NCBI GenBank assembly: GCA_950295325.1
Contig: OX485808.1
Location: 188,501 to 252,500 of the forward strand
Length of the DNA stretch: 64,000 nt
Direction: 5' to 3'
From: Polytrichum commune
Lineage: Eukaryota > Streptophyta > Polytrichopsida > Polytrichales > Polytrichaceae
Each line of letters begins with the position of its first letter. Position 1 is the first letter of the stretch. The notes beneath the pieces are model-generated. The model was not told where the DNA came from, made no database searches, and saw nothing but the letters and a program-made list of their open reading frames with translations. Made by a program: the position numbers and the translations under genes. Shown piece by piece: positions 18,125-59,006 of the stretch.

Positions 18125-19476
18125 TCAGGCGTCCCTGTCTGTGCTCAGCGGGTGTGTTTCTTCTTGAGGTAGCTGCTGTGTGGCGCTCTTCACGGCCTCT
18201 TCTGCAATTTGAGAAACTATAACAAATGCATCGACTTCCACGACTTTTGGATCTCCTACACTAGCGGCAGCCACTGCAGCACCAACATCTGCAGGTGTGG
18301 GATTAGGTGAAACTGAATCCTGCCAGTCGAAGTCCATCTGACTGGGCAGGTCTTCCAAAGTCTTCTCTTGCGTCATCGGTATGACGAATGCGGGCATGGC
18401 TTCAGGAGTACAAGGGGAGTCGATTGACACGCGCGTGCTTTGGGGAGGGGGCTGCTCGACCTCCGAGGCCTCTGCATTGCCCAAAAGTCCAGAGCTCTCA
18501 CGACATGACTGCTGCAAGTCGGCTCTCTCACCGATTTCAGGGTCACCTCGCGCCGGCGGATGCACTTCAGAATGCTCCAAACGCTCCCGGACTATATTCT
18601 CGGCAATGTTACGGAGCTCCCATATGTACTCGCTACGCTCCATAGGGGGCACCATTACCTCTGCCAAGCCATTCACACACATGAATCAATGTCGGAAACT
18701 AACACATGCTTCCATTTGTGAACAAGAACACTTTGAAAATCATTGGAAGCACCCAAAATACCTGGCTTTGCGAGTATGGAGCCAATGTCAAGATCCTCTC
18801 GGTGTTTCAGCCACCGCTCGTAACATGCGAGGGGGGCCGAATAGGATGCAGGGCGATCACGAATCGTCCATGCTTTGCAAAACAATTGCTTGTCGTGGAA
18901 TGCCATGTCGGTGATGGCCCTGAACCGCGTTGAGTTGCACCACATGCTCAACTCCTCCCACCATTCAGGTGTGGGGTGTTTTAATTCCTGTGTCGCATCG
19001 TCCACTTCTGCCATCCATTGCTCCTGGGATTGGACGGGTCTAGCGCCAGCAAAGACGAGGAATCCCTCATCTTTCAAGTAGGTGGTTGCTAGCTGCCACG
19101 TTACGGAACGCTCATCATCCGCCGCTTGTACCCACTTTGACCATTCGGTGACATTGGCAACAGTTGCGCCACTTGAAGGGTGTGATACCACAGGTGCAGT
19201 TAGGGTGTGGTACTTGAGGAAACAACGGCACATGAGGACTGACCATGGCACTGGATACACCCTAGTAACATGTGATTGTTGCAAGACCAGTCCATGCACA
19301 TGTGACCCTTCAACAATTGAGTGATGCAGGGGGTAGGGAGGTGTGAATTCATGGCAGAGAGGATTTGCTACATAAGACAAATAGAAGGGATGCCAACCCC
19401 AAGTGGCCAGCAACAAGCGAGGATAGTGTTCATCATCCCACACTTTCATTGCTCTGCCAATGGCCGCGTTGACCTT
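18125..19476 (-). pseudogene. MULE second gene, C-terminal part (left of CACTA insertion)
   Basis: The reading frame enters from the CACTA junction as KVNAAIGRAMKVWDDEHYP and continues to 18673. It then continues in a shifted frame as NGLAEVMVPPMERSEYIWEL to a stop at 18125. The change of frame falls in a TGTGTGTG run, so slippage is possible; a very short intron ending GGCAG is the alternative. The protein is rich in W, H and acidic residues, with a Pro/Gln/Glu-rich tail. I recognise no family. Its place, opposite and convergent to the transposase, is that of mudrB in MuDR or of anti-silencing genes in VANDAL elements, which is a positional analogy only. The N-terminal part lies at 59007-61258, across the CACTA insertion. 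Confidence 0.65.
19474..19476. repeat. CTT target-site duplication, left side of CACTA
   Basis: The three bases before the CACTA terminus are CTT. The same CTT follows the TAGTG terminus at 59003, not the one at 40943, which is followed by TTT. CACTA elements are known to make 3-bp target duplications, so this pairs the left end at 19477 with the right end at 59003. Confidence 0.85.
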
Positions 19477-19541
19477 CACTAGTAGAAAACATGGTTAAAA
19501 AAAACCACAGTCGTTTTTCTATTGCGGTTCTTTTGACCACT
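19477..19541 (+). repeat. CACTA left terminal inverted repeat, 65 bp
   Basis: It matches the reverse complement of 40879-40943 and of 58939-59003 at 64 of 65 positions. The mismatch is ACCACAG here against ACCGCAG at the right end. At the right end that G completes an internal hairpin (AACCGCA / TGCGGTT) that the left end lacks. Confidence 0.95.
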
Positions 19542-22067
19542 GTTTTGTGGGGTGTTGCGCCAAACGTGAAATCATGCTACACTTGCAATTTCCATTGAGT
19601 GCCGAATGAAAATACGAGTGTACATGTATATGTTCCACGCGTGTTTGGAGTACATGCCATTCCTTCATTGAATGCATCGGTGTTCGCAGTGCTGCGCGCT
19701 CCAATACTAATTTCCTCTCTTGTAATTATGAACAAGATGTGAATATCGAAGGAGAACAAGCAACCGGAATGCAATTACTGACTTGACTTTTTCGCTTGTG
19801 TTGTGGTTGGTGTACTGATGGTTTTAGCTGTAAATCGTGCAGTCATGTACCATAAAATGGCCCAGTCCTATGCAATCTTCTCTACCATGCGTGCAAATCA
19901 ACGCAGTGTGTACCAATCTTACTGTACTGTCCGCCATTCACAAGACCTTAAGGCGGATGAGTTTGAGAAACTTCCAGTGAACGTTCAAGAACCTAGTGAA
20001 AAATGGCTGACTTTTTGGCTGAATATATGCAAACTGGCTCAAAGTAGTAAAGACGGACCGAAAGTTCCCAACAATTAGCTGGTTGGACTTGGAGACACTT
20101 ATTGTCATCTTTGATGGAGCCAGTATTCTCCACGGGAGAGTGGGAGGCGGGAACTGCACTGGAGCTCAACTCACGATGCTAAATGGTGGGCAACATTAAG
20201 GAGACACCTCCAAAAATGGAGGCCCCGACGAATAAGCCATCAACGCACAGGTTCAGGGTGCCATAGGTCTGAGGTCACGACTAAGCAGAGATTCAAACAT
20301 GAATTTATTCCACATCGGATGCACATGGTTAAAGAACAATAGTGAGAAGAACACCTTTGAGTGGCTAGTCTTTCAGTAGAATGAAGGGCAACGGAACCTC
20401 AGCAAATTGAGTTTGGATGTGTACAAAGTTGGTTTTACTGCCTATGTGTCGTGTGAAATGTGATTCTGACACCGACACATCACATGGAACCTGCTCAAAA
20501 TGAAGTTGCAGACTAAAAACGAGAAACCCATGCATACGGCAATGGATCAATGCACTTAATGCTGTACATAATATTGTATCAATCCAATGTTCACAGACAT
20601 TTCATGCATGCCCATGGATTGCTTCATACTCGGAGCGTACAAGATGTATGCAACACTCCGATAACAACAATTCTTAGCTCATTAGAATGCAGGGCATTAT
20701 GCCAGTAACTACACCATTGTAAAGTGAAAAAAATGCAGCATATACGTTGCTTTCCACGAAAACCAACACATATAATGGAGGACGAGCAAGGAACTCTCGC
20801 CACATAAATTGGGTATCATTCAAAATTGCCAATTCAACGCCAGAATGTTTTGAAATCATATATGTCCTCCTTGCCATCAAGTCTACAATTTTGTGGTCAT
20901 TTGTGAGTATCAGAGCCACATATCACTCCACATAAGACCAAGGCAAACTTCTTGCTTCATCCTACAAAAACATGTCCATATGTAAACTGTGGCATTGACA
21001 TCATCTAATTATGCAGTTCATGGAACTCGGAAATTCCTACATATGTCCATACTAAAATACATATCTCCTAGTTACAGCGTCGTCCGATGGTCTCCTTCCA
21101 CGGTGACCAAATGTAGGCTCATTCCAATCGCTCCCACCAACTTTGTCAATCAAGATTCCACAATTTCCATTATGTGTTCCACCGGGTTGCTGTGCTCCAT
21201 ATGCTGGGGCTCTTCTCCAGAGGGCAGTCCAATTTCGCTGTGGGCAGTCATCAATGTCTGCATCCCGCACGAATTCCAGGTAACCGACTCATAAACAGAT
21301 TGCGACACCGTCCCCGTACTGCAAGAAACCACCTGGACGTTAAAATTCCCGGACAAATTCGGAGTCATGCCTCTAAATATGTCGCTGCGAGTAGGTGTGA
21401 AATACAACCTGTCCTTTCAACACATTCATATCAGCTTGCATGTGTGTCCAAGGAATGCCGAGCAGCTTACTGTGCGGCACACCTCAATTACAATGCGTTG
21501 ATAAACAATAGTCTGCACCTGCACTACATACTATTCTTCAAAGTTCTGGGTGTTCTCACAAATACCGTGCATGGCTGGCGTGAGGCTAAACCTTGCAAGT
21601 AACAACATTTCATATCCAAACAAGTGTCCTCATGAACTCATTCAAGGGATCATCCAACATAAAATATGTGATGTAATAAAAGTGACATTATCAATAAACA
21701 AAATCCATGAATGGTGGGGAGGGGGTGGGGGGAACTCGTCGCCTGTAAACATATCACGTGTTGTTGACATTTATATGCTGAATTTGGCCGCACAGCTTTC
21801 CTGCACCTTAATTAATAAATCTCCACCTCCTACTACACATAGGGGGCACAGCTGCACAACCGAAATTATTATGCATATTGGGGTTGAGGGTCAACAAATA
21901 CAGGGCTGAATTGGATCAGTTCCACTACAATTTGTCGGCGACAAATCCGTCAACTCCTTGTGCTTCGCGTGAGGGTCTGTTACTGCAAATAACACTACTT
22001 ACAAGACTCAAACATTGCAATTGACATTGGGTGGGACCTTCCTCTTACCATTCACTTTGTTTGGCAT
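19542..22067. other. CACTA left subterminal region
   Basis: There is no recognisable gene in these 2.5 kb between the left terminus and the end of the minus-strand gene. A plus-strand open frame at 19803-20078 contains a plausible stretch, DEFEKLPVNVQEPSEKWL, but has no known family. A G-rich run sits near 21715-21733. CACTA subterminal regions usually hold binding sites for the element's regulatory protein; I could not identify a repeated motif here by eye. Confidence 0.45.
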
Positions 22068-25000
22068 TTAGGTACCCTTCTTGTTGGGGGGTCTGTTCTG
22101 CTCGGTCTTCTTCCTCAATTGCGAAGAATCCCGCGGCTTGGCAGCTTCCAAAGATTCTGTCGTGGTGGATGGTGAGTTCGTTCTCTTCCCTTTCGGCCCC
22201 TCTCCAACCGCATTGGAGGATGCCCTGCCACAAACAGCTGAGGTGAGCTTACCCATCAACCGAGTTATTTCTTCCATAGTCGGAATCTGCATTATGTAGC
22301 ATACGCCCCACAATATGGGACTGTTGGGCAGTCCCTCTGCTTGGTCCAGGAAGGCGATGTGCTTTGGGTAGCGCCCTTCCTTCTTGAACATCACCGGAGT
22401 GTCTTTGTAGAACACTCTTATTACACTAATCATTTGTTCTCCTTTCTTGCATAAATCCTGCTCGTCGTTTAGGCACCTAGACTTGTGGTTGATTCCGGCG
22501 TAGGCCTCCGCCACAACCTTCCCGTCGAACTTTGGATGCAAAACCCAAACCTTTACTCTGACTCTGATTGGACTCTGCGACACAAATATCGATACCCACA
22601 ATTATATCAAGTCACTGCCATTCGTTTAATTACAGGGTCAACTTCAGCCAACTTTGAAGACGACAATTCTATTATGCATTACAGTCACAACCAGAAGGTG
22701 GAACACTCACACTATTGGGAGGCCGCCTGGCAAATGAAAGTTGAGTGATGACAGATGCATCCATCTGCGGAGTTCTCTGTCTCTTTGTCGAGGGACTTGT
22801 ACTTTTTGCATTGCCTCTTTGGGTCCTTCTCTCGGAGACTTTGGGTGGATTCGCCACCTTCCGCTTCACTGGAACCTTGGGTAGCACAGGCAGCTCTTCG
22901 CCATCTGATTCTGTTTGGATTGCATCGCGTCCAGTATCTTCTCCATTAGATTCATCACCCTCTTCCAGGCTGATGTCCACATCGGATTTTAACCTTTCAT
23001 GTTTGGGCCCGTTCATTGTTTTGCTATGTACATCATTGTCGTCACTTTTCTGACCAGAACCTCCATCAAGGTAGCCATCGCCTAAGTCCGCAGGCCACCT
23101 CAACTTTGGGAACGTCGTTTCACCATGAGGACTTGTCCCACCAAGTCCTGCCGTATCCTCCTCATATGAATAGTTCATCAAATGTGAACTCTCTGGAGAC
23201 CAGGAGGGGCTCCTAGTCTCCTTCCTTCTTGAGCTCCTTTGAGAGGTTGAGTCTCTTCCCTTTGTGGCAAATTGGGTGACTGGCTTTCTCACAGATTGTT
23301 TGGCGCGTGCACGAGGGCTTTCATCCGAAGTTGAGTCGGATGACAATAGCTCAACAGGTTGGTTGGGTCTCCCTCTCGCCGCCGTGTGATTTGTGCGGCC
23401 GCCACGATGTGGGACATCCTTCGCCGTCTGGACCTCAATATCCACTTCCAGAACTCTAAAGGGAACTGTGTCGTCCAACTCCTGCGGAGCTGCACTTTTC
23501 GCCTTCGTGTTCTTCATGTATCGCAAGTCACTGTCCTCCTCTCTATTTCCTTTGTTGCCTGCCTGGAAGTTTGGTTTGCCCGGTTGCACATGTGACTTGC
23601 CTTCTCTATTCTGCAATGTGGTTAAGGGAGTGGTGGAGGGCCTGGTCAACCCCTTCAACACCTCTGACGTCGTGCGATTGCTCGGCCTCTGAGTCTGTGT
23701 CTGAGTTAATGCACTGTCGTGTGCGACATACTTATGGGCTTCAACACAGACAATGTTAGCTAGAGAGTCACATTCTGACGACAAATTAGATACAAACTCA
23801 TCTACCAATGCATGGAGTTTGTTGCTAATGTCGAGCATGGGCGGTCGCTCCACAAGACCGTCCGAAGAAGAAATTTTCGATGACGACGATGTGTGCGATA
23901 GACGCGGCAGTCCCGTACCCCGTAAGGGATTTTCTTTCTGCAGGTTCATAACATGGGCAGCACACCCATGGGTTAGAGATTCTACGTGTGCAGTCTGGTT
24001 TAGGGGGAAAATACAAGTGTTATACTTCCTGAACTCCTGCCGTCAATCAGTGGGACTCCTGTGTTGGAAAATTCATGCAAACACAATAAAGTGGCCATTT
24101 AGGGGTTCATGATATTACCGGATGTGCTTTCTCCTGCGCATAGGAGCTGCAACGAGCGCCACCTTCACTTTCGGTTGTGGATCTCCTATCTCTGGAGGTA
24201 CTATGGCGTTTTGCCTACATACACCCAAACAAAGTGATGAGTTAGGACAGGTGTCAAGAATTGCACACCCCAAGGAGGTGTGAGGGGAGACAAATCCTTG
24301 CAGCCACCAAAGAACGGTGGACCTCACAATTCCTGAACTAGGAACAGCTGAATCCTCATTACAAATTTTCATAGTACAAGGAGAGGATATGATAACGTAC
24401 TCCCGTGCCTTTCTTTGTTGATGCATTTGCCTTGTTTCTCTCGCATTCTCTGCTCCCTTCCGATGACTTCCAGTAATCTACCAATTGCAACCATGCCGCT
24501 GATGAACAATCATCAGGCCTGCTACTATCACCGTGTAGGAGCCATTGACGATGATACAATGATCTATTTCTCTTGTATAGACGTTGGAGATACCCCTCTA
24601 CCATGCCGTCCGGGAGTGGCTTCTCTATTATGAACTGTCGCTTCACTTCTCTCATGATTTCTTGCATGGTGCATGGATTCTTTATGTCTATATCGGCGCA
24701 TGGAACAATTGCAAGTGCAGCTAGTTTGAGTGCGTTCAAGAATTGCGCTTTGTATTTGACTATGGCACCATTGTGGTTTTGTTCGAGCCGGACTTGTGGC
24801 ACTCTACCTTCTGCAATGGATCTTTTCACTTCTTTTAGATATGACTTCTCTTCTACTCTAAGTTGCTTTCTCTGTGACAACGTGGAGGGTGGGGATGACT
24901 TACTGGATGTTGGACTTAACAATGTGGGGCTATTGTTTGTATTTATCACCAAAGATGGCTCCTTCAGGGAGTGACGCCGGTCGCGCAAGGTACCTCCTTC

Positions 25001-26171
25001 CGATGATGTATGGGCACTGGCAACTGTGTGAACAGATTGCCGCCCCAATGTTGATGGCGCTGGCCGTGCACTCTCTGCTCCCAAAACCTTGCTAGACTCC
25101 ACACGACCCCCACTCGTATCTCTGGTTGTATGGGTTTCTCTTTGTTGCCCACAACTGCCTTGTCCCATTCCAGTTAGGAGTCCAGCAACTGTCTGGCCCT
25201 CCGCAGCTTCCACAGGCATACACTGTGTCCGTGTGCGAGGTTGCGTACTTTCATGTGGTGGATTTTGCACCTGTCCTGATGTGTAGTATTCTGCGGCTGC
25301 CGCATGACTGGGTGGGGAGCCAAATGGTGCACCTTGTGGCCGATTCTGCTGCGGCAACAATGCGCGGCCAGAGGTAGTCCCATCGAACTGCGTGTCTCGT
25401 GGCTGTGCAGGATATGACACGTGATTGTTGTATGCATTGGATGGAGTAACTGGTGTACCAATATACGGATTGTACATGGATTGGGGTAGACCACCCATAC
25501 TTCCATAAACCGGCTGGACAGATTGCCACGGAATTGTGTTCTGTTGTTGGTGATAGGGCGCTGAATAAGGCATGCTGAATATCTGCATACAATGATTTGT
25601 GAGTAGGCAAGTTTATCTTCGTCTGGGGCATACCAACCATGAGCACGGAACCTAGACAACTATATGCAGGGCATCCAATATGTTACATTGGCAATGCCAG
25701 GAGAGAACTGCATTACATCCAATTCATAATGCACGGGAGAAGGACAATAAAGAGACATCGGTATGATCTCAGGGCGACTGCACTGGTGAGGAGGGGAGGG
25801 GTCGGACCTGTGATTGGTCGATCCTCTGTGGTTGCGCTGATGCACCTCTAAATACCTGTATATACAAAGGGGGAACACATGAGTGTCAATGCAAGACCTA
25901 TTTGTGGTGGAAATGACAGCTAACTACTTCAACGACGTTGCAAAAGAGTGCAATTCAATGTGAATGTGCATAAATCAGAATTACTTACAGGCACGTTTTC
26001 CATGTTGCCACAAGGCCATGCATTAGTGTTGGCCAACTGAGGATGCAGAGTGCGAGAAACACATACCGGTCGGGACAAGTCGTCCACAAACTGGGTGCTC
26101 CTCACGACGTCATATTCCGTGAGGGTCCCCTGACTGTATTGGTCGGCCATAGTATTCATATAATTGTCCAA
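22068..26171 (-). CDS. CACTA second protein, Transposase_24 (Ptta/En/Spm) type, TNPA-like role
   Basis: Exons supported by splice signals and frame, all phase 0, are 25582-24401, 24214-24119, 23937-22711 and 22574-22068, with stop at 22068. Upstream exons at about 26171-25989 (canonical GTAAGT donor) and from 25855 are likely, but the N-terminus is unresolved. Exon 25582-24401 begins with a Q/P/S-rich region and ends in the conserved part: VEGYLQRLYKRNRSLYHRQW, then WLQLVDYWKSSEG and ERNKANASTKKGTG. The next exon continues TTESEGGARCSSYAQEK, matching the plant Ptta/En/Spm transposase family (Pfam Transposase_24). The third is low-complexity, charged and serine-rich, probably disordered. The last contains RVKVWVLHPKFDGKVVAEAY and a basic tail. 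In En/Spm the second protein binds subterminal repeats and regulates the element; assigning that role here rests on family and position. It is divergent from TNP2. Confidence 0.8.
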
Positions 26172-26958
26172 TATAGAACTGGGAAAAATATCGGGGCCCT
26201 ACTATGCGAAGGACTTCTGAGTGTTGGGCGATCACGTAATTGTGGTCGTAGATTGTGTCTGCCCAAAGTTACAGAGTGGAATCTGTGCACTATCACGGAG
26301 GCATTGCAACCAACTTCATCAATACCTGGCCATATCTTGCATTGCAACTGGCATGGCCTCGATCACTGAATTCTGCCATAGAGAAACCTAATAAAAAATG
26401 GAGGTTGATTTGAGACCACTACACACTACAGACCATCAATATACGGATCAAGGTTGAATGGAGGCTGGAAATGGGTTTATGATGGAAAAGTGAAAAGAAC
26501 CTGCTGATCTTGGATAAGCTGATGTGAAATGTGTATGTAAGAGGCCTGCTACTCCATAATCATGAACCAATGGGAGAGTGATCTCTGATCTGCAAAAGTA
26601 CACCGCCTGCAAGCTAGAAAAAGTTGAGAAATTTTGTGAAGAGTCCTAAAAAGGGTGTCACATAGAGAATCAAAAGAGAAGAATCTAACATCCAGCAACA
26701 CGGAATACTCAAGCATGGAGAAATATACGACACAGCGTGTACCCTTAAACCGGCATCAAACACAATACACTATTGCCGTTGTCCAACTTGAACACGGCAT
26801 AAGCAATGACCACGAATTGGAAGGAAGACAAATCCCAGGGAGTGTGTAGTTCCAAGGAGCATACAACTACATGTCACAGGACATGGCCATACGGGATCCA
26901 CATCGACATTGCTAACTATTGGTGAGCAAAGTATCGCTACATAAATCGGATTACTTAC

Positions 26959-27027
26959 AGCCTCTTCTGGTTTGTTTTCAACATTCCTGTGTGCACGTTC
27001 AAGACGCTGCAGTGGTGCCAAAGGCAA
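26959..27027 (-). other. Candidate 5' coding exon of the Transposase_24 gene
   Basis: A minus-strand ATG at 27027 opens a 23-codon frame (MPLAPLQRLERAHRNVENKP and on) ending at a canonical GTAAGT donor at 26958. It has the same donor sequence and phase 0 as the exon ending at 25989. It is probably the first coding exon or an upstream exon of the minus-strand gene. The exons linking it to 26171 are not resolved. An identical copy lies at 45019-45087. Confidence 0.4.
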
Positions 27028-27268
27028 AATACTGTTCTAAGCATAGTGTCTTTAATAGAGAATACCAGCACATAAGTTTATCTCTCAACCACGCATCTAA
27101 ACAATGTCACCCCGGATTAAGAAATAATTGTGGTCACAAGCATGCCAAAAAATAGTTAGCACCGGACTACTTTTCCATTGCCATCTCACCCGAATACGAC
27201 CACTTCGACACTACAGCGAGTCGACGGCACAATTGCGCAGTGGTTCCCTCATCCAGGAGGGGACCATT

Positions 27269-27882
27269 GATATGGTCATTTCAAAATGCACGATGACAGG
27301 AAAACTGTTACAGAGGGAACTCTGCGTGATGTAATAGCCAATCCCCATATGACATACATTTGAGGATAGAGGAAATAGTCGTAACACACTTTGCCATACA
27401 CCACTCAAAACATATCTGTCTGGGAGTGATCAAACAATGCCCACATACCGGAAACAACAAGAGAATACTCACAGGAGGCAACTTGAGCAAGGAAGATTAA
27501 TATGGACATATGTATCAAATGCTGCCTAAACACTCACCAACAAACTTGCCGCAGACCAAGACTGAAAAATATGACGATATGGTCATTTTGAAGTGAACGA
27601 TGACAGGAAAACTGTAACAGATGATCTCTCCGTGGTGTAATAGCCCATCACCATAGTCCACACATTTGATTCTAGGGGAAATAGGCAAACATGCTGGGCC
27701 AATACACCACTCAAAACAGATCTGACTAAGAGTCTTCACAAAATAGCCACATACCGGATACAACAAGACCGTACTCACAGGAGGCAACTTGAGCAGGGTT
27801 TAGTTTTAACATGGACATATGTATCAAATGTTGCCTAAACAATCACCAACAAACTGAAAGCAGACCAAAATTGAAAAAACTG
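27269..27882. repeat. Tandem duplication of about 307 bp inside the CACTA
   Basis: Two units, 27269-27575 and 27576-27882, both start GATATGGTCATT. They share long blocks including ACAGGAAAACTG, CACCACTCAAAACA and CACAGGAGGCAACTTGAGCA, and are diverged by many substitutions. On the minus strand each contains CTCAAGTTGCCTCCT followed by a GTGAGT donor-like site. It is an old duplication internal to the element and is repeated at 45329-45942. Confidence 0.88.
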
Positions 27883-30800
27883 ATGACGGAAAATGGCACA
27901 GCCACATCCTGCGTGTTAAAGGTAGCTCAAAACAACAACATTGGCGGGGGATCTTGGCAGCATCAACATGTTGGGTTTGCACACCGACCCAACACAGGTC
28001 AAACACATCAGGGTGCACAGTGTGGGGTTGTGTGGCACAGGCAGACAAACTGGTGCACTCTGACGCACAAGTGATAGTCGAGCCCCCAGACAAAGGCGAC
28101 GGGGCGTGCGAAGGGTTCAACACCAAAAGAAGGTTGCTTGACTAAGACCCCTGGCGCAAAAAACATGGCGATGCTTTAGGGTCCGCATCCGGCATGCTAT
28201 AGGCAGGTCAGAGCGACAAAGAACGAAGGGAAACTTGCGTGTATGAAAACTGCACATGTTGCACACCTATGCCAGCATGAGATGGAAACCACAGGCTGCG
28301 CACAGATAGGTGATTGGATTGGCCAACGGGAGGCAAGTGCGAAAGTGACCATGGATCACTGCAACACTCCACTCCTTGTACAGTGTAGGGTAGCAAGGCG
28401 GAGGCACACAAAGACCGAGAGGCAATGCACGCTGATGTTGAGGATAGAGTCTGCTCATGTGAGAAAGGCGAGGAGGAGACGATGTAGTGAGTCTGAGAGA
28501 AAAGAAAGATTCGCGGAGACGAGGAGACGATGCACCTAACAGAGACTCCTAACGAATGCAGGTGATTGACAGGATGTATGCAAGTCGAGGCAGAACCAAA
28601 CCGACTCAGAGGGACCTCGAGGGAAATTCAATTGCCAAGCAGCGGGAAATTGAAGCGAAAGAGATCCGTTCCGGGGGAAAGTCGAAATGGGAAGAGTCTG
28701 CAACAAAGTGTGCCTGATGAGGGTGGGCCAACTGCCAGCCTCGAGCGAAGGGGAATCGTGTCGAAGATCTTCAACCATCATCACCCGGGGGCTGGATCAA
28801 ATCCCCACGTACGCACAGCGGCCTGGCAGCATGGCCATGGCAATCATGGGGTTAACTCCAGCCCCCACCGATGACGTGGTGGGAGACACGTCATCCTCAA
28901 CACGTGTGAATAACTTTTCCCATCCACATCGTCGCCCCCTGATGGACGGTCAAGATTGCCTCGGGCAGCACATTGCCTCGGGCAGGGAGCCATCAACGGC
29001 CAAAATTAATCGGGCAGTCTGGTTGTGTATTTTCGGCGGCGGGCTCTACACAGGTAGGCTCCACCCTGCTTGAACTCCGCCATTCTTGTCATCCCCGTTC
29101 GTTCTACCCATCTGCTCTTGCATGTACGCAGCTTTGTCATGGTTTTTGGAGGTTTCGGCAAGCTCGTATTGCAGTAGACGGCAACTCAGCGATCTTGGTG
29201 CTGGATGTGTGTTGCATTCTGCTGGTTTAGGGGAGGACACATACCCCGCGTAACGCATCGGCGTTCACGACGCGTTGCGCCATTGTAGATCGCATTGTGT
29301 GAGGTTCCTTTGTGTCATGCCGCAAAGCGTGAATGATACAACCGAGGCTATCTTGGCGAGGACTGCCTTTTGCGGGGTCTGCGACGTTGCAACTTGCCGA
29401 GGTTATCTCTTTCTTTTGTGAAGAGTTCATGTGTCCTTCACCTTGTGTGTGCATATCTGCGACGGTTTGGGCTCCCGGGTCCAGAGCTGTGTTACAAAGC
29501 TCTATTGTCCGTCTACATGACGGCATCGTCGCACTTTCACCCGAGGAAATTTGCGCCATTGCTGACTAGCTTGGCGTTCTACATGTCAGGTTCTGTGTAG
29601 CCGTGATGTGTTGTTTAGATCCATTCACTCTGCGATTTGTGGTGGATCCGCCCCAATGTTTCTGTGTGTGGGTGATTGTATGACGGCGTGGATCAGCCTT
29701 GTTCATGCCATGTCGTAGTTATTGTGTCGAGTAGATCAAGTCATCGCCGTGTGCCGATCATAAAACTTGCAGTACTATGACTGATCTTGTGCCTCATTGC
29801 AGAATGAACGTCTCCGTGATTGGGACTTGAATTGCACACGCTCTCAGAGGCGGACGAGGGACGCGTGGCTGCTGTCCTCCCTTGTCTCAGAGTAGCTTGA
29901 ATGTTTGGCGTTGTTATCTATTTTGTGACATTTTCTTAACTTCTATAACTGGATTTCCGGGCAAACTGTGTAGCAATTATGTCATTATGTCATTATTGGC
30001 ATCTTGCATCCTTAGCTTGGTCAGCATTCTTCAGTATGTTTTTATCGTGACGACTGACCCAGTTGTGTGTGGGTATGCACTTGGAGTGTCACACCTATTG
30101 GAGGAGATCGCCGTCGCAGCAGAACGTAATTACAAGGGCATTCTGTTGTCAGATGCAATCTGACAGCGGAGTCTGCGATCCGAAAGGTAAGTTTCCAAGC
30201 CCCATTTTTGGCTAGTGTGCTTTGCCGATACGATTCTTAATGTTTTCACCCAAAATATATGAAACCTGCCTCCACCAATGTTGACCACGCAACAATGGCT
30301 TGGTTCAGCACTATGGATTGACCCACTGGGTCCTCTTCAACATTGTCGTGCCTGCGTGTTCCGTTATGCCACACACTGCCTATGCAGTTCGATCTGTAGC
30401 CAGACTTGTTTCGGCAATGCAGAGTCGGAGTGTAACATCAGTTACAGATGGGCAGATTCAGTAATATATAGTTATCATGGTTGTCATGCTGCAAGGATGT
30501 AGATGTTTGCGGTTGAGTTGCCTGCCAGAATGGCTACACCATCTTCAACCTGGAGGATTGTTAGAAGTCTAATGGTTTAAACATACAACGTATTCTTAGT
30601 TCACTGTGTAAGAGCGTATGATGTGTGTCAGAATGTGTGTCATTCTCAACTCAGCTGAGAAATGTACGAAAAGTTAGAGGGTTCACCCAGTCTGGTGATG
30701 ATGTTGGGTATGGGAGAACAGGTTGTGTCGAGAATGGCAGCCACTGATTGAGCACCATGATCATATAAAGTGCCTTCGTAATGCGCGCAACAACATGAAT

Positions 30801-40878: not shown

Positions 40879-40943
40879 AGTGGTCAAAAGAACCGCAATA
40901 GAAAAACGACTGCGGTTTTTTTTAACCATGTTTTCTACTAGTG
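40879..40943 (-). repeat. CACTA right terminal inverted repeat of copy 1, 65 bp
   Basis: Reverse complement of 19477-19541 with one mismatch; ends ACTAGTG. It is followed by TTT and an LRR-coding sequence rather than by the MULE gene. Confidence 0.95.
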
Positions 40944-41070: not shown

Positions 41071-41270
41071 NNNNNNNNNNNNNNNNNNNNNNNNNNNNNN
41101 NNNNNNNNNNNNNNNNNNNNNNNNNNNNNNNNNNNNNNNNNNNNNNNNNNNNNNNNNNNNNNNNNNNNNNNNNNNNNNNNNNNNNNNNNNNNNNNNNNNN
41201 NNNNNNNNNNNNNNNNNNNNNNNNNNNNNNNNNNNNNNNNNNNNNNNNNNNNNNNNNNNNNNNNNNNNNN
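41071..41270. other. Assembly gap, 200 N
   Basis: Exactly 200 undetermined bases, a round number that suggests a placeholder rather than a measured length. Contig ends on both sides lie in repeated sequence (LRR repeats on the left, CACTA interior on the right). Confidence 0.99.
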
Positions 41271-45942: not shown

Positions 45943-46929
45943 ATGACGGAAAATGGCACAGCCACATCCTGCGTGTTAAAGGTAGCTCAAAACAACAACA
46001 TTGGCGGGGGATCTTGGCAGCATCAACATGTTGGGTTTGCACACCGACCCAACACAGGTCAAACACATCAGGGTGCACAGTGTGGGGTTGTGTGGCACAG
46101 GCAGACAAACTGGTGCACTCTGACGCACAAGTGATAGTCGAGCCCCCAGACAAAGGCGACGGGGCGTGCGAAGGGTTCAACACCAAAAGAAGGTTGCTTG
46201 ACTAAGACCCCTGGCGCAAAAAACATGGCGATGCTTTAGGGTCCGCATCCGGCATGCTATAGGCAGGTCAGAGCGACAAAGAACGAAGGGAAACTTGCGT
46301 GTATGAAAACTGCACATGTTGCACACCTATGCCAGCATGAGATGGAAACCACAGGCTGCGCACAGATAGGTGATTGGATTGGCCAACGGGAGGCAAGTGC
46401 GAAAGTGACCATGGATCACTGCAACACTCCACTCCTTGTACAGTGTAGGGTAGCAAGGCGGAGGCACACAAAGACCGAGAGGCAATGCACGCTGATGTTG
46501 AGGATAGAGTCTGCTCATGTGAGAAAGGCGAGGAGGAGACGATGTAGTGAGTCTGAGAGAAAAGAAAGATTCGCGGAGACGAGGAGACGATGCACCTAAC
46601 AGAGACTCCTAACGAATGCAGGTGATTGACAGGATGTATGCAAGTCGAGGCAGAACCAAACCGACTCAGAGGGACCTCGAGGGAAATTCAATTGCCAAGC
46701 AGCGGGAAATTGAAGCGAAAGAGATCCGTTCCGGGGGAAAGTCGAAATGGGAAGAGTCTGCAACAAAGTGTGCCTGATGAGGGTGGGCCAACTGCCAGCC
46801 TCGAGCGAAGGGGAATCGTGTCGAAGATCTTCAACCATCATCACCCGGGGGCTGGATCAAATCCCCACGTACGCACAGCGGCCTGGCAGCATGGCCATGG
46901 CAATCATGGGGTTAACTCCAGCCCCCACC

Positions 46930-46966
46930 GATGACGTGGTGGGAGACACGTCATCCTCAACACGTG
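46930..46966. promoter_or_regulatory. bZIP/G-box palindrome, copy 2
   Basis: GATGACGTG and CACGTCATC arms plus the CACGTG box, identical to 28870-28906, between the divergent genes of the second copy. Confidence 0.5.
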
Positions 46967-49604
46967 TGAATAACTTTTCCCATCCACATCGTCGCCCCCT
47001 GATGGACGGTCAAGATTGCCTCGGGCAGCACATTGCCTCGGGCAGGGAGCCATCAACGGCCAAAATTAATCGGGCAGTCTGGTTGTGTATTTTCGGCGGC
47101 GGGCTCTACACAGGTAGGCTCCACCCTGCTTGAACTCCGCCATTCTTGTCATCCCCGTTCGTTCTACCCATCTGCTCTTGCATGTACGCAGCTTTGTCAT
47201 GGTTTTTGGAGGTTTCGGCAAGCTCGTATTGCAGTAGACGGCAACTCAGCGATCTTGGTGCTGGATGTGTGTTGCATTCTGCTGGTTTAGGGGAGGACAC
47301 ATACCCCGCGTAACGCATCGGCGTTCACGACGCGTTGCGCCATTGTAGATCGCATTGTGTGAGGTTCCTTTGTGTCATGCCGCAAAGCGTGAATGATACA
47401 ACCGAGGCTATCTTGGCGAGGACTGCCTTTTGCGGGGTCTGCGACGTTGCAACTTGCCGAGGTTATCTCTTTCTTTTGTGAAGAGTTCATGTGTCCTTCA
47501 CCTTGTGTGTGCATATCTGCGACGGTTTGGGCTCCCGGGTCCAGAGCTGTGTTACAAAGCTCTATTGTCCGTCTACATGACGGCATCGTCGCACTTTCAC
47601 CCGAGGAAATTTGCGCCATTGCTGACTAGCTTGGCGTTCTACATGTCAGGTTCTGTGTAGCCGTGATGTGTTGTTTAGATCCATTCACTCTGCGATTTGT
47701 GGTGGATCCGCCCCAATGTTTCTGTGTGTGGGTGATTGTATGACGGCGTGGATCAGCCTTGTTCATGCCATGTCGTAGTTATTGTGTCGAGTAGATCAAG
47801 TCATCGCCGTGTGCCGATCATAAAACTTGCAGTACTATGACTGATCTTGTGCCTCATTGCAGAATGAACGTCTCCGTGATTGGGACTTGAATTGCACACG
47901 CTCTCAGAGGCGGACGAGGGACGCGTGGCTGCTGTCCTCCCTTGTCTCAGAGTAGCTTGAATGTTTGGCGTTGTTATCTATTTTGTGACATTTTCTTAAC
48001 TTCTATAACTGGATTTCCGGGCAAACTGTGTAGCAATTATGTCATTATGTCATTATTGGCATCTTGCATCCTTAGCTTGGTCAGCATTCTTCAGTATGTT
48101 TTTATCGTGACGACTGACCCAGTTGTGTGTGGGTATGCACTTGGAGTGTCACACCTATTGGAGGAGATCGCCGTCGCAGCAGAACGTAATTACAAGGGCA
48201 TTCTGTTGTCAGATGCAATCTGACAGCGGAGTCTGCGATCCGAAAGGTAAGTTTCCAAGCCCCATTTTTGGCTAGTGTGCTTTGCCGATACGATTCTTAA
48301 TGTTTTCACCCAAAATATATGAAACCTGCCTCCACCAATGTTGACCACGCAACAATGGCTTGGTTCAGCACTATGGATTGACCCACTGGGTCCTCTTCAA
48401 CATTGTCGTGCCTGCGTGTTCCGTTATGCCACACACTGCCTATGCAGTTCGATCTGTAGCCAGACTTGTTTCGGCAATGCAGAGTCGGAGTGTAACATCA
48501 GTTACAGATGGGCAGATTCAGTAATATATAGTTATCATGGTTGTCATGCTGCAAGGATGTAGATGTTTGCGGTTGAGTTGCCTGCCAGAATGGCTACACC
48601 ATCTTCAACCTGGAGGATTGTTAGAAGTCTAATGGTTTAAACATACAACGTATTCTTAGTTCACTGTGTAAGAGCGTATGATGTGTGTCAGAATGTGTGT
48701 CATTCTCAACTCAGCTGAGAAATGTACGAAAAGTTAGAGGGTTCACCCAGTCTGGTGATGATGTTGGGTATGGGAGAACAGGTTGTGTCGAGAATGGCAG
48801 CCACTGATTGAGCACCATGATCATATAAAGTGCCTTCGTAATGCGCGCAACAACATGAATAGGACTTTGATGGGCTTTCCATCTTACCTCCTGAATTATG
48901 TCAAGCAATGTCCCCATATTCTGTGAAGATCACCTCACTTTCATGGGAGGTACTGATTCGTATTTGTGTCAAGTAGCAGTATGTAGAAGGCATGGGGTCT
49001 TTATCTGCGGAGGATGCAGGGAACCGGGCTTCACCGGCTGACGATCGAGTCCTCAGGGGAACCGTTGAGGTAAGATTGCGTGTACCAGAAGATCTGCGAG
49101 GACCATGTAAGTATGGATGCTTACATGAAACCCCTGTTGCAGGCAGACATTGACAACACTACTTGCCCTAATGATTCTTCGGAGTGTCTGTTGCTGGCAG
49201 TATATCTAAGGTCCATTGCCTGAGTGAATAACTTGTGTATATGGTCAACGACACAGCTAACAAGACAGTAGTGTGGATGCTGGAGTGGTTTAGCGCCATT
49301 TTTACTTGGTGCCCCGGCGTGAGTTGATGTGGATGAAAACCGTGTGTATGACTAGCAATATCGGTGTCCCCTTCAGTGAATGATTTGCACCCTTTTAAGG
49401 TGGTTGATAGCAAATTAGCCAAGGTGCGAGGTGAGTTGCTTCACATTGATCTCATATTGTAATGGTGCAATAAGTCTACAAGACTATGAATGTTGGACTG
49501 CCCAAAGTTATGTGTCGCCTGCCGTAGCTGGGACGTTCTTCTGTTATGCAAGACTGGGTTCATTAAAGAATAACATGGTGCTAAAACATGATGCAGATTG
49601 AGGC

Positions 49605-52600
49605 ATGAGCATGGAGGGTGAACCAGTAGCTCGGCTTCCACTAGACCATCCACTCCGCATCAAGGCAAGGGATTTGAAGTTGCAGCAGCGAGACGAGGAT
49701 CGTGCTGACAGGAATGCATTGTCTAGGTACAGGTGCCCTTGCAATCTTTGTGGGGGGCGGAGACGACCCTACAAGACCAGCACAGTTGCAAGGCACCTCA
49801 GGCATCGGGGCCGACATGGTGCCTTGAGAGGTAGTACACAGGTAATTACGCACATCGACCATAGTTGAGGGAGTGGTCATGAAATACTTAAACTTTATTA
49901 TTGACGTGACCATTTTGTTGTCGATGTGTGTTTTAATATTGGTGTATGTTGACATTTAGGGTGACGACTATGACTCATCTGACGAGGAGTGGGATCAGCA
50001 CATTGGCTCACACGCTCGAGCATTTCTCGGCCTGAATGAGCCAATAGCTGAGATAGCTCTCGACGACGGCGTTGGAATTGGGATGATGGTGAGGAATGCT
50101 TTCACGTTTGCGGACAACATACACATGCGTGCGGCTGTGGCCGCCTGCCCCGAAGCTGCCGTTGCAGAGGGGTCCCCAATGCAGCACCGGCAGGATGGAC
50201 TCGGAGATGCGGATATTGTGAGCAACATTAATGTGCGGTCAGAAGGTGAATACATTGCTGAGTTTCAAACAAGGTCCCTGCAGTCCAATTGCAGTAACGA
50301 TCACAGCCAATGCCCACGTCAACATGGAACAAGCAATGTCGATGGAGGCTCCAGCGGAGAGGAGGGTTCGGCCAATTTAGGGGCCGAAGATGGGGACGCG
50401 GAGGAGAACTCTAGTGATTCCTCCAGGAGGGAGCCAGGGGATGCATCGGACGACGAACAGAGTGATGAGGAGGACCTGGAAGAGCTGCTGGGTCAAATTC
50501 CCGAGGACCGAATGGGTTCGAATCCCGAATTTGATATTGCCGCAACACTGCCCTTGTATGAGGGCAGCACCTTGTCCATGCTATGCGCAACCTTGCTCAT
50601 AGTGAATTGTTGTAAGACACACGGTGTGTCCAACACATTTACGAATGAGCTACTTATGCTCCTGAGTATGAGTATTCTGCCCGCGGGAAATTGTCTTCCG
50701 AAAACGGAGTATGAGGCGAGCAAAATTCTGCGGAGACTTGGGTTGGCATATAACATGATACATGCTTGTCCTAATGGGTGTTGTTTATTTAATGGTGATT
50801 TAGAGGATGTTGAGAAATGTCCAGTGTGTGAGCATGATAGGTACAGAATGTGCGGGAGGTCAAGGGTACCGACTTTGATATTGCGTCATTTTCCCCTTAT
50901 CCCTCAGCTGCAAAGGATGTTTAGCTCTAAGAAGTTGTCAAAGTTAAATGTATGGCACTATTTTAACAAGTCGGTTGATGGAAAGATGAGACACACTGCT
51001 GATTCTCCACAGTGGAATTTTGTGAACACAGAACTGGAACCTGAAGCGGGCAATGATATGTTCGGTCGAGATCCGCGGGATATCCATCTAGGACTTGCCC
51101 TGGACGGCATGAACCCATATTCTGAGAAACGCTCAACCCAAAGCTTAACTCCAGTCATTGTGTTCAACTACAACTTGCCTCCGTGGTTGGTAACCAAAAA
51201 ATACTTTGTAATGTTATGTCTTCTGATTCCAACTAAATTAAGTCTAACAGGTTCAAATATTGATGTCTTCGTACAACCTCTGGTAGATGAGTTGCAACAA
51301 CTGTGGAGTCGTAGGGGGGTTCTTACATGGGATGCTAGAGCTAATTTGGGAGTGTCCCACTTCAACCTGAGGGCCGTTTTGATGTGGACATTGCACGATT
51401 TTCCGGCCTATGGATTGATTTCTGGACTAACTACAAAAGGGTTCAAAGGTTGTCCTGTATGCGGACCCCACACAGTATCTCGCAGGTCCAAAATACTGAG
51501 GAAAAATGTGTACTGCAACTGCCATAGAAGATATCTGCAAGGAGACCATTATTTTCGGGGCGCAGCTGCAGCATTTGACGGTGAAGCAAACCATGAAACG
51601 GCGGCCGAACCACTAACAGGAAACCAAACAATTCGGTATGGCCGTCAATCAGAGGCCTACATTGACGGAGGGGGCACAGAGAAGGACGACGAATTTCCTG
51701 CCAAGGAGCACGGTGTAAAGAGAGTATCAGCGCTATACCAGTTACCATACTGGAGGGTTAGTATTGCGAAACCTGTTGCTATTTATTCTCCTAATTTTCA
51801 TTGAAAGGAATGACATGGTTGAATATCTCTGGTTGTCAATTCATGTCTACCTTACATGGCCAGGAAGATGATATGATCACCGGGATGTTGTGAATATTCC
51901 TGGTCCTTGCTGGACACACTGCAATGTTTAACTTCAGAGTCTGTAATGAATTAAGAATAAATGCAATGCAGACAATACCCTGACTCTATCAAAATGGACA
52001 GTTTGTTGTTGCCAGCCTGCTCATTCATCTACAACTGCAAATGAAATATATGTAATTTGACATATGTATATATGAATATCAGACAATGAAGCATTGCCTA
52101 CTTGCTTGCAGGTTGTTGTGGTCCCAAATGTGCATATATGATGTTGGACACTAGCATGTTGTGGCTTGTTGTTGAAAACACCTAGTGACTTACGAGACCA
52201 TTATGCACATTGCAACATATGCTTACTATTGCAGCTTGTAGCCGCAGAAGCTTCCAATCAGGCACCTCTTGGATGTAATGCACATTGAGCGCAACATATG
52301 CGACAGCTTAGTGAAGTTACTATTTGGAGCGAAAGACACCGCAGCCTCGCGTCGAGATATGGAGGAGGAGAGAATACGGCAACATTTGTGGGTTCGTCGA
52401 GGGCCGGTGCCTGGTGGAAATTACATCAAGCCTCCTGCACCATACGTGCTGACCAAAGAGGAACAAAAAAATTTTCTAGAGCAATTGGCTGGAATATCAC
52501 TACCGACGGGCTATTGTGGGCCAATGCAGAAGCACATACTCCAGAATAGAATTGGTAACATGAAGTCCCATGACTTCCACATCTTTTTCCAATTTATACT

Positions 52601-54346
52601 CCCTGTTTGTTTGAGGCATCTTATGGACAGGGGGCCCCGATCGGCCATTATTCGGCTTGCAAGGTTGTTCACAATGATCTGCAAAAAGGTCATAGCTGTG
52701 ACAGAGTTAGAGCGTTTACAACATTATGCAGCCGAAACAATGTGCTTAATGGAGGTATGGTTTCCTCCTTCTTTTTTTGACATTATGGTCCATTTGCCAA
52801 TCCATCTTGTTAGGCAGGTGAAGTTGTGCGGCCCAATTGCCAATGCTTGGTGCTATCCGGTAGAGAGACACTTGAATGTTTTAAAAAAATATATCCGGAA
52901 CCGGGCACACCCCGAGGGTGCCATTGCGAATGCTTACTTGTATGATGAGGCACTCGGATTTTGCACCGAGTACTTGAAGCTCTATCCCTTCACACGACGA
53001 AGAATTTGGGATGACGAGGAGGAGTTGGGTGATTGTGGAGAACTGCTAGAAGGAAAAGCCCTAAACCGAGAACTAACCAACGAGGAGCGGAGAGCAATCC
53101 ATTCTTGGATTATTAGGAATTCAGAGGCAACTAGGGAGCCTTGGAGGTAAACCATATGCATTATGTCTTGATGAATAATCAAATTCACGCCTAGTCTGTA
53201 TGTAGCCATGGCCTTTGCGTTCAGGTGCTGTCACACCCACTAATGTATAGTTATTTTGTATCTGCCAGACAATACCAGGCCCTTAAAGAGCAACTGGAGG
53301 CAGGAAGGGCAACATTCAGGAGGGATGCTGCATTAAGAGGGCTTAGCCGAAGACAACAACGTGCTTATCCTAATGACCTCTTGAACGACTTGCCTGACTT
53401 TGTGGACTGGTTGCCATCATACACCACGCAGTTGGTCAACACACATGGTTCACGCAATGTTGACATCGATTTGCTCCGACTATCGAGTCTCCCTTCTCGA
53501 GATGCTGAGAGTTATCAGCAAATGTGGGCCTATGGGAACCACTACAGGGTGTACAACGAGGGAGATGAACGAGGGTTCGTGACACAAGATTATGGAATCG
53601 CCAGCATATTTGGAGCAGAGGAGGGACAAAGCGCAGGTGTGAGTATGGTAGGAGTCTTGAAAGAGATTATTGTTGTTCGATACTCAGCGCAAAGGAGGGT
53701 AGTGTTTCGTGGTTCATGGATTCGCAATGCTCCTGGGGCACAGTCATCCACGAAGGTAGACCAGTATGGCTTCACGATTGTCAGGTTCAATGATCGGATT
53801 GCCCGTGACATAGAACCGTATGTGTTACCGGCCACAATCCGCCAGGTATCACAATGTAGTGAGTCTGATTGGGGTTCATGTGGGAATGTGGCTCCTCCCT
53901 GTTGAAGTGTGCCCCAATGTATGGTGCATCGGAGGATGTGCATATATTGTGTGAATCCATACAATACCTTTGTTGACTATTTGTGCACATGGCGCAAGGT
54001 GTTCTTCATTGAGGATTGGAGGCATCCTGCGTGGCGCGTGGTGCTCCAGAAGGAGCCGCGATCGCGGAGAGTGGTGGACAACGACGATGAACAGACATTG
54101 GGGATATCGGGGGATCTGATTGGCCTCCAACTACCGTTGGACATGAACGCAGCGCATTTCAGGCCAAACCCTGTGAATGCAGGGGAGGCAGTTCCAGCCG
54201 CGGAGATTGCCAGGCTGAATGCACTAGTGGCTGGTGATCCACATCAAATTCACCAACATGCAGGGGCCAATGGACGAAGGGGAAGGGGAAGGGGAAGGGG
54301 AAGGGGAAGGGGAGGCAACCGGAGGAGGTTGCCAAGAAGGAATTAG
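49605..54346 (+). CDS. CACTA transposase TNP2/TNPD, copy 2
   Basis: Exons are 49605-49841, 49960-51756, 52248-53146, 53251-53845 and 53999-54346, matching copy 1 exactly with an offset of 18,060 and giving the same 1,291 residues. Transposase_21, DUF4218 and DUF4216 regions are all present and open. If the duplication is real, the two genes are so similar that they separated very recently or were homogenised. If the scaffold is chimeric, this and 31545-36286 may be one gene seen twice or two alleles or paralogues at different loci. Confidence 0.9.
54279..54314 (+). repeat. (GGAAGG)n tract, copy 2
   Basis: Same G-rich tract as at 36219-36254, at the 3' end of the TNP2 copy 2 coding sequence. 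Confidence 0.75.
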
Positions 54347-54931
54347 ATAGGACCTTGGAATTCGGACATGGCAGTCATGTGCTTTGCAACACCTCGAATG
54401 GCGCTGACGGCATTTTTCCGGTAGACACCAGTATTTCTGATTGCATAAATGCAACTCAAACATGATATTTTGATGTTTCCTGTTAATGCAATGCATCGAA
54501 CTTACCCCTTGTGCACATCGTCTCTACAGACACAGCAATGGTTTGTCATCTTTGATGTGGCAATTGTGATAACATTGTGGGTTACTAATGTCAATCATGT
54601 GGTCATGTAATATTTCAGGTGGTTGATGAGATTCCTATTTCCGAACTATTAAAGCTCAAAGATTCGAAGTGTTCTGGGGACATCTGGGAATGGGACTGTG
54701 GACGGCAGATTGTGGACGTACATGTCTACCTTACACTGAAGGAAGATTACACTTGTCATATTTGAGGATGTTTTTATGTAGAGCTTTCTATTACTTGGCA
54801 AAGAGGTCTTGCTTCTAAGATGTTTATATTTTGTGATGCGAGACATAATATTGGGCCTTGCCTCAACTTTGTTCAGGTAGGTGAATGATGAATCTATCTG
54901 TTTTAAATCATTGTTTAATCTTGTTGCACAG

Positions 54932-56652
54932 TTGATCTTCCCCTGCACACTCCTGGGTACTGGAGAACCTTGGACCCTGATGAAAACAATAAGTGTCACA
55001 TAATACTTGAACTATGAGTCAGGTATGTTCTCTTCCTTGTACCTTGAAATTTGAAAGTCGGATGACTAGGAGTTCCAGCTGCTCAGTTTATCGGAGCTCA
55101 GCGTGTAGGAGATTGTTCAGATCTGCTGCCCTTGGCTTCTGTTGGACTACGGTGTGGGTTCACTGATTTGCATGACTTCATGTATTTTATTGCATGGACT
55201 CATTTTACTCCTCTGTGGAGAGCACGGACTTTCAGAATGTAAAGCAAGTATAAACTAATACCTTCAGCTGATGAAGACTACTGCTTTCAAGTGATGTTTG
55301 GATCTTTCATGTGCGACTTTGTTGACAACATATATTTGTGATGTTACATAAATGTAGCTATCCTTGAATTGTGCAAGAAAATTCTCAAAAAATAGGGGTG
55401 TGGGGGATTTTCGTAATGACGTGAAAACCACAAATATTCCTGTAGAAGTATGGAGATACTATCTTCTTGTCAATCGGCCAAAGGTACACTAATCTTATCC
55501 TTATTGAGAGACTTGCAAGGCTAAAATGCAACCTCGTGTATCCTTAATCAACTAGTGTGTCTAGCTACTGCTTGAATCTATCTGTGAAGTTCTTATATAG
55601 TTTTTAGCTGTTGGGTACATCTATGTTGTTCTTCCAATATGTTCTGCATGCTGTGTGTGAATGTTGTGGTCGTTCTTGCAGTTATGAAGGATAAACATAA
55701 TTGAGAACTGTGGAAGCAATTATTGTCTAAAACGGATTTCCTTGCTATTCCTTTTTAATCCAAACTTGAAGTTCACAAAGGCTTGTGTGAACAAAATGTT
55801 CCTTTATGGGTTGTGCATTTGTATGGCAACGATCATTTAAAAAATATTCCAATAAATTCATTATTATTTTGATTTTTTTTTTTTTGGACCCTTTAATGAT
55901 GTCTTTACTACAGGTTTCAGATACTCTGTTTACCTGGGCAGACCTTCAGGCCAAGCAAAACAATGAGTTGCTAAAGAATATGGGCAACTTTGTTCATCAG
56001 ACCTTGTTTTTTCTGGCCAAACCTTCAGGTCTGCACCACCTCATATTCAAAAGTTATGAAAGTATTCTCTAGCTAGTTTATGAAAGTGTTATGAGACTAG
56101 TGTTTCTGCTTGTAAATTATATATGAAATGATCATATACAAATGATTATGAGATGAAGGTTTTGTGGGATTTTTTGACAGGGGAAGGTGGGTATATATCA
56201 GTGGCTACCGAAGCTATCAACCCTGTAGAGCATGAACTCACAGCCAATTTCGGATCCGAAGTTGAGAAGGTTGTGACTGAGTATGTTGACGCTATGGAGA
56301 AATTGAAGTTGAAGACATGCTTAGAGTAGCAATGAACGCTTCCAGTCTTGGCAACCTTTATTTACAGGCACTGCACCTAAAGAAGTTTTGGAGAATTGTC
56401 AGGACCCATTTGTGCCGTGAAAGTCCTACCTTTGTATGATTGATTCTATGTTGAGGAGCTCCATCATGGCGATGTTTGTAAATCCTAACTTTCTGTCATA
56501 TCAATCATGGTTCATGGGAACAGGACAGCAAATTCTGGAAGTTGTACAAGGAAGATCCACCTGCTTGTGCAATTGTGTTGAAGGCATCTGTTGGACCGGT
56601 TCATTTGTTGACGACACTTTTTGAACCATTCATGCCAAATTTCTCCCACAAG
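54932..56652 (+). pseudogene. Captured methionyl-tRNA synthetase fragment, copy 2
   Basis: Blocks at 54932-55022, 55377-55483, 55914-56028, 56181-56366 and 56524-56652 repeat those of copy 1, including the TAA, the frameshift and the KFSKN loop. The damage therefore predates the separation of the two copies, or both are readings of one sequence. Confidence 0.87.
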
Positions 56653-57995
56653 GTAGGCTTTCAGAAGACCTTGCAATCATCTTTTCATGTGGCTCAGTTT
56701 CAGGCTTGAATGTCTTTGAAAGTCAAGAGGGTGCATCTCAATCACCATTCCAAACTTGACTTACTGTGGATCGAAATAGGCTACTTTGCAGAAGGCCTCG
56801 GATCCGAGGTCTGTTGTCCTTGGGGGTTGCTAAACTTGATTTGAGGTCAAGTTTATGGTTTCAGGTTGAATGTAGGCATGCCATGTTTGGGTTTCATGTC
56901 TAGCTACATTCAACCTGACTCCATAAATTTGAAATCGAATCATTGTATTCTTCATATACAGAGACACGCATGTGTTCATCTAACCGGCCTTTCCAGATTG
57001 GGGTGCTATGAACTCCTCCTCTCCAGGTAAAATTTCGACTCGTTATTCGTGCCAGTTGTTTTTACATGATCCGTGCTTGCATTGTGGGCGTTTTTTGTTC
57101 GTTTGAATTGTCTTCAAATAGATATTAATATGTGATGTAATTTTTAACTTGTTAAGGAGATGACATGGCAATTATCCTATTCATGCAGTATTTGCATCAA
57201 TTTATAGTGAGTCTAGTGTAAGGTTCCTTCTGATACTTGGACTTGGAGCTGTATACTTTGCAGAGTAAATGACAAGCTCCACTAAACTCTTGCCTTGTAT
57301 CTACTTGTTATGACAGTCACTAAATGTGGAGTTGTTTAGTGTACAAAGCATAAATCCTGAAAGTGTAATTATTTGTGCAGATTGGCAAGTCTGGAACTCT
57401 ATGGACTGTGGCAGCGGCTTTGAAGCGCTACAGCATCCTGGACCCGGAACGCCAATCCTGTTCTCTGCTCAATGTTCGAAATGTGGCCATAGATTCAATA
57501 GCAAATTTGTACGTGTTGGAACATGTCATCCACAGTAGTTCATTTTTCAGAGAAGAAAGGTTCAAACATATTGGGACCATTGAATGTAGTTGCATTGAGA
57601 CTTTGAGAGATGTGGGACGCAGTATTAACTGAGCATGGCGGATAATGTTACTGAGCTTCATTGGAGTTGCCAAACAATGAAACTCTAGTATGTTGCCCAA
57701 AATATTCATATCGCTGAAATGTATGATGTGAAGTTTGTGTGCAGACTATGACGCTTGATAGACATGTATGTGTGTAATTTTGTGCACGACTTTCTTTCAT
57801 GGGAATGTAGTTATCATTGCAACCATTGTACAGACCATTTTTTTCAATTCCAGTGTCCCTTGCTCATTGACCTGTCCCATTTGTAATCTATGATTTGAAT
57901 ACAAGAGCAAGTAGCATTCGAGTGTAGGTTGAATGCATGTCGCAATCGTTTTTGGGTTCAGTCCGCTTGAGGCACAACGCATTGCGGGTGTCAAC

Positions 57996-58103
57996 GGAAA
58001 TCGAGTGTCACTCGATTTCCAGTGCCAGTGGAAATCGAGTGACTCGACACTCGTTTTCAGAAGACAGTGGAAATCGAGTGACACTCGTTTTCAGAAGACA
58101 GTG
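57996..58103. repeat. GGAAATCGAGTG cluster, copy 2
   Basis: Identical to 39936-40043 with an offset of 18,060; subterminal in the second CACTA copy. Confidence 0.8.
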
Positions 58104-58938
58104 CAAGTTGGCTGCAACTGTATTTTGACTACAAGTTGCATCCAAATGCCACATGTTTCCAACAGGCACTGGACAGCCATCGTCATTGCAGCTAGGGCTG
58201 AACCCAATACGTAGGAGCATTTCGGTGTGAGTGGCAGTCAATATAGGACAAACCCGTCCCACAATTAAAGGGAGTGTGTGCACTGTTGGTCGATTGAAAC
58301 ACGCGTAGGAATTGAAGAACATCGATCTAAGAGCGCATTGGGCACGATTGGATGAGATCCGCGGGTTTGCAAGTCGGACCGGTTATGTGTTAACAAACTT
58401 GCCATTTCCTTCATAAAAATAGGGTATATTTCATAAATTCCTACTCCATGGTAGGCCCCTTTTCTGCAGTCTTCAACTTCGAATGGTCGTATTTCCACTT
58501 CATCCGGACCATTTGTAACCAACTGCCGGTTCTCCCCAGGTGTGCATTAATTGTTGCAGAGGCAATCGAAGACATACCTGTGTATTGACATAATACGGAC
58601 TTGGCAAGCAATTGCATATCTCCTGAAAGTCATATATATAGCTCATGGAATGACATGGGACTGTGATTTCAAATTAACTCCGAATCAATGTTTACTCTTT
58701 GCAAAAGGCACCAAACACTTGCTGATACGTACGTACCTAAACTAACCCAGACATATATATATATTTTACGTACGTAAAGGATGTGTGAAGACATTAAGTT
58801 TCCAAAAATTAATTGCACGCAAATGCATATACACAGAATATAAAGAGAAATGATCTATGAATGTGTAAACAGTTAAAACCTTGAATGACAGTGACCCAAT
58901 ATTGGTAATTATCGCCCCCCCAAAAAAACTATTAAAAT

Positions 58939-59003
58939 AGTGGTCAAAAGAACCGCAATAGAAAAACGACTGCGGTTTTTTTTAACCATGTTTTCTACTA
59001 GTG
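58939..59003 (-). repeat. CACTA right terminal inverted repeat of copy 2, 65 bp
   Basis: Same sequence as 40879-40943, but followed by CTT and the MULE gene. It is the terminus that pairs with 19477 by target-site duplication. Confidence 0.95.
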
Positions 59004-59006
59004 CTT
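59004..59006. repeat. CTT target-site duplication, right side
   Basis: CTT matches 19474-19476. Taking one CTT away together with everything from 19477 to 59003 joins the MULE second gene in frame (RQA then KVNAAIGRAM). Confidence 0.85.

Follow-up and report, generated by a model that had tools for sequence, protein, structure and literature searches.

The two CACTA copies that appear to enclose immune-receptor DNA in the 64,000-nucleotide stretch of Polytrichum commune DNA analyzed here (the window) represent, with a probability that we put at about 95%, a chimeric assembly in which sequence was falsely duplicated; the apparent composite is most likely one jumping element written twice at an assembly break. 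This reading is drawn from the anatomy of the window, in which the letters themselves, an assembly gap, three CACTA termini, the two arms of a host MULE, and the target-site triplets were observed directly. The chimera is an ordinary explanation; the initial annotation had offered it as one of two readings, and the features seen fit it, with the refinement that two contigs would overlap by 17,733 bp across a placeholder gap.

Positions 41271–59003 repeat positions 23211–40943 at an offset of 18,060; a direct letter comparison of the 17,733 bases gave 0 mismatches. On the right side, this block of identity stops precisely at the end of the CACTA element (40943 in copy 1 and 59003 in copy 2); on the left side, it stops where position 41270 and the bases preceding it are N. 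The only N run within the window is an unstranded assembly gap of 200 N (41071–41270), the length of which we take to be a placeholder, and the first base of copy 2 (41271) directly follows it. The scaffolder YaHS has a default gap length of 200 N. Copy 2, which opens contig 2 (41271–59003, plus strand, 17,733 bp), lies in the same (direct) orientation as copy 1 and is without the first 3,734 of the element's 21,467 bp. Of the two apparently identical CACTA copies initially annotated, the identity is thus exact (0/17,733 mismatches), but the second copy starts at the gap edge without these 3,734 bp, and only copy 1 is a complete CACTA element as written. A near-identical repeat with a gap between its copies is the form expected of a false duplication, and here none of 17,733 bases differ and the 200 N stand immediately before copy 2. 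Identity that begins right after a gap and ends at the element end, over 17,733 of 17,733 bases, supports the chimera.

A search with the 18-base CACTA end, allowing up to three substitutions, found a single left terminus, at 19477, and two right termini, one ending at 40943 and the other at 59003, in the window. One left and two right termini are what overlapping contigs are expected to give; a composite of two elements would have two of each. The position in copy 1 that corresponds to the first base of contig 2 lies 17,860 bp from the end of contig 1, a distance that a single accurate long read would roughly cover. At a substitution rate of 7e-9 per site per year, the probability of zero differences over 17.7 kb between two copies 1,000 years apart is 0.78.

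The sequence at 19477–40943 (plus strand, 21,467 bp, in contig 1) is a CACTA (En/Spm) transposon. Its terminal inverted repeats are 70 nt long, 97% identical, and start with CACTAGTAGAAAA, as in members of this family, and it encodes a Tnp2-type transposase (PF02992, Transposase_21; E 2.4e-61, 207.1 bits). The Transposase_21 match is followed by a DUF4218 piece (E 5.4e-38, 129.8 bits) and accompanied by a weak DUF4216 match (21.8 bits, below the Pfam cut-off of 30.6); these gene pieces lie at 32023–35845 on the plus strand, and stops are present in all three frames between the Transposase_21 and DUF4218 pieces. The three pieces are possibly exons of a single gene. Two minus-strand ORFs in the element added little to this annotation, with no Pfam family at E 1 for ORF 22672–23949 and a sub-threshold Transposase_24 match (13.8 bits versus a cut-off of 28.7) for ORF 24359–25588. 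The Pfam scan covered 12 of the 18 ORFs of at least 200 aa; of the other six, five fall within copy 2 or overlap it, and one is at 4141–4869. Against viral_contigs, a collection not expected to contain plant DNA, the CACTA transposase ORF gave six pattern matches and no related locus, and the 30-base CACTA terminus gave 0 matches. The element shares with the CACTA (En/Spm) family its CACTA termini, a 3-bp target duplication, and Transposase_21 with DUF4218; among the features tested nothing was unusual, and at 21.5 kb the element is long. Two internal repeats were also observed. The right subterminal region (39913–40127) carries repeated, partly palindromic units (CACTCG...GGAAATCGAGTG), which are possibly binding sites for an element-encoded protein; subterminal sites of this kind are a feature of CACTA ends. 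A direct duplication with a period of approximately 306–309 bp, 85–89% identical in the blocks listed, is located at 27269–27886.

The two outer flanks of the CACTA sequence appear to be halves of one MULE, because their arms match as 94/94 inverted repeats and the triplet CTT is common to both. The left arm of the terminal inverted repeat (13475–13568, plus strand, at least 94 nt, and possibly extending outward) pairs base for base with the right arm (63907–64000, plus strand); the latter is cut by the window edge, and the true arm may exceed 94 nt. The MULE at 13475–64000 amounts to at least about 11 kb by coordinates once the inserted stretch is left out, and its transposase lies on the plus strand, in ORFs 14681–16060 and 16079–16732 (together 14681–16732); the first matches PF10551 (MULE, E 3e-08, 34.4 bits) and the second has no Pfam match at E 0.001. 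On the minus strand, the left piece of an ORF interrupted by the CACTA element (18673–19476) has no Pfam family. The right part of the MULE (59007–61267, minus strand), upstream of the insertion, contains ORFs 59712–60656 and 60614–61267, neither of which has a Pfam match at E 0.001. To the left of the MULE, a gene similar to TIR-domain and LRR immune receptors is present in pieces at 2383–6596 (TIR at 2383–3195, LRR at 5208–6596), and a 230-bp unit is found as two tandem repeats, 97% identical, at 104–563.

The triplet to the left of copy 1 is CTT (19474–19476, plus strand), as is the triplet to the right of copy 2 (59004–59006, plus strand), while the inner flank, to the right of copy 1, has TTT, unlike either outer flank; all three triplets had been reported in the initial annotation and are present. 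At the base composition of the window, two triplets would be alike by chance with a probability of 0.017. If both outer triplets flank one insertion, CTT/CTT constitutes a 3-bp target-site duplication; copy 1 as written, bordered by CTT and TTT, would have none. Together, 94/94 outer arms, CTT on both outer sides, and TTT on the inner side form the pattern of one ordinary insertion.

The MULE reading frame was a less informative guide to the joint between the two outer flanks. It had been described as continuous only between 19476 and 59004, and the minus-strand ORF is indeed open across the joint, but a stop follows after 15 codons, and 58% of 20,000 random 15-codon minus-strand windows of the right flank were open as well; we accordingly rejected the frame as proof of the joint. 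We also rejected the idea that the in-phase frame is the most open one to the right of the joint, as over 70 codons (59007–59216) it contains two stops and the other frames contain three and one. Codon-position GC, compared without a shuffled control, was 0.56/0.44/0.52 over the left 268 codons and 0.66/0.36/0.54 over the right 70 codons, with the same phase order on both sides, which mildly supports one MULE frame across the joint. With two stops and the GC order kept, the minus-strand frame at 59007–59216 is consistent with a decayed gene or an intron border.

Contig 1 ends with 127 bp of LRR-coding DNA (40944–41070, plus strand), which we read as an overhang from another locus. This segment is periodic at 72 bp (55 of its bases align at that offset with 87% identity) and encodes 42 aa with an LRR_4 match of 27.4 bits (Pfam cut-off, 27). 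An LRR gene to the right of copy 1 had been annotated before; the LRR_4 match, just above the cut-off, agrees with this, but the segment is only 127 bp long and is cut by the gap. TTT at the right border of copy 1 occupies the position that is TTG in the following repeat unit, 72 bp further along, and because this triplet is in the LRR repeat register, the border looks like a clean insertion of a CACTA element into an LRR gene. An inner flank in LRR register would be expected if a CACTA element had inserted cleanly into an LRR gene in an event of its own. A copy of the TIR/LRR gene at 2383–6596 was considered as the origin of this tail and rejected, the longest DNA match there being only 16 nt; the tail resembles 6294–6374 at the protein level (52% over 27 aa, E 8.6e-9), and to judge from these matches it is a related repeat rather than a copy of that gene.

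These features can be assembled into a simple history. On the true chromosome, the left part of the MULE would be followed by CTT, just one young CACTA element about 21.5 kb long, CTT, and the right part of the MULE, while a second, near-identical CACTA element would reside in an LRR gene at another locus, adjoining TTT. With an element of this length and copies so nearly alike, the assembly graph would branch at the right end of the element. Contig 1 would then run from the left part of the MULE through the CACTA element into a 127-bp end taken from the LRR branch, and contig 2 would start 3,734 bp into the CACTA copy of the MULE and exit via the MULE-right branch. Scaffolding would presumably have made the two contigs neighbours in the correct order, separated by a placeholder of 200 N, without collapsing the 17,733-bp overlap of their ends.

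Where a repeat exceeds the read length, paths branch and contigs break, and junction reads that are placed on a different copy of the repeat leave overhangs of unique sequence, as described in PMC6877557; 200-N gaps are present in two assemblies for which the Hi-C scaffolder YaHS was employed (PMC12134992, PMC12675260). The window resembles false duplications at assembly gaps as treated in PMC9516828 in that a gap lies between the copies and the flanks fit a single copy. However, the account in PMC9516828 puts its emphasis on haplotype divergence and gives sequencing error a minor part, whereas the cause proposed for the window is a repeat longer than the reads; the window also involves a proposed switch to another locus at a contig tip, which places it nearer to the repeat branching of PMC6877557.

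The initial annotation had also considered that two CACTA copies and the LRR segment between them moved as one composite element and left CTT on the outside. Such a unit, with its two copies in direct orientation, would have entered the MULE by means of its outermost ends, the left one of copy 1 and the right one of copy 2. We regard this as very improbable. The outer CTT match with TTT inside, which prompted the idea, and the direct orientation of both copies agree with it; maize macrotransposons bounded by the ends of two Ac/Ds elements have been described (PMC3260210, PMC9910405, PMC4270019), and CACTA elements are cited in PMC3260210 as able to capture gene fragments. A single insertion would nevertheless be just as likely to leave a target duplication at the outermost ends alone. 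On the scaffold in its written form, the likeness to Ac/Ds macrotransposons (PMC3260210, PMC9910405, PMC4270019) consists of this outermost target duplication and of element ends flanking a cargo, but CACTA belongs to another superfamily, and the sequence of the window as written shows neither the second inner terminus nor the cargo; in those sections of PMC3260210 that treat macrotransposons and cite gene-fragment uptake by CACTA elements, no macrotransposon of the CACTA type is described. The written letters contain neither a second left terminus nor the right side of the LRR cargo, the cargo seen amounts to 127 bp followed by 200 N, and copy 2 starts inside the element, at the gap edge. On this reading, no less than 3,734 bp of CACTA sequence and the rest of the cargo would have to lie in the gap. 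Zero differences do not in themselves argue against this history, because very recent copies would also be identical, but it does require copies young enough for zero differences, and the features that it explains are explained by the chimera with fewer events. We set the composite aside on the missing second left terminus and the start of the duplicate at the gap, and the claim found no support in the letters as written. There is only a very slim chance that a left CACTA terminus and a longer immune-receptor segment are concealed in the gap, and that a unit of more than 39 kb moved into the MULE, shuttling LRR sequence.

Least probable of all is that ectopic recombination between the CACTA element of the MULE and that of the LRR gene truly joined the left part of the MULE to LRR DNA, in the plant or in one haplotype, with contig 2 as the other product or haplotype: the left part of the MULE, the CACTA element, and the LRR segment do run unbroken in contig 1, but two contigs with 17.7 kb in common at a gap would still be needed, contig 1 stops just 127 bp beyond the repeat, at a point where a break would be expected from a branch in the assembly, and the placement of the contigs as neighbours would favour one locus.

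The choice between these readings bears on what the window says about the plant. If the scaffold were accepted as written, it would suggest a mobile element with immune-receptor DNA, and a composite, if true, would widen macrotransposition from Ac/Ds, for which the sources cited above describe it, to CACTA elements and receptor genes. Read instead as an uncollapsed overlap between two contigs, the window points to approximately 17.7 kb of false duplication and 127 bp of misplaced LRR sequence in the assembly at this position, and suggests only that the plant has a recently active family of 21.5-kb CACTA elements with near-identical copies.
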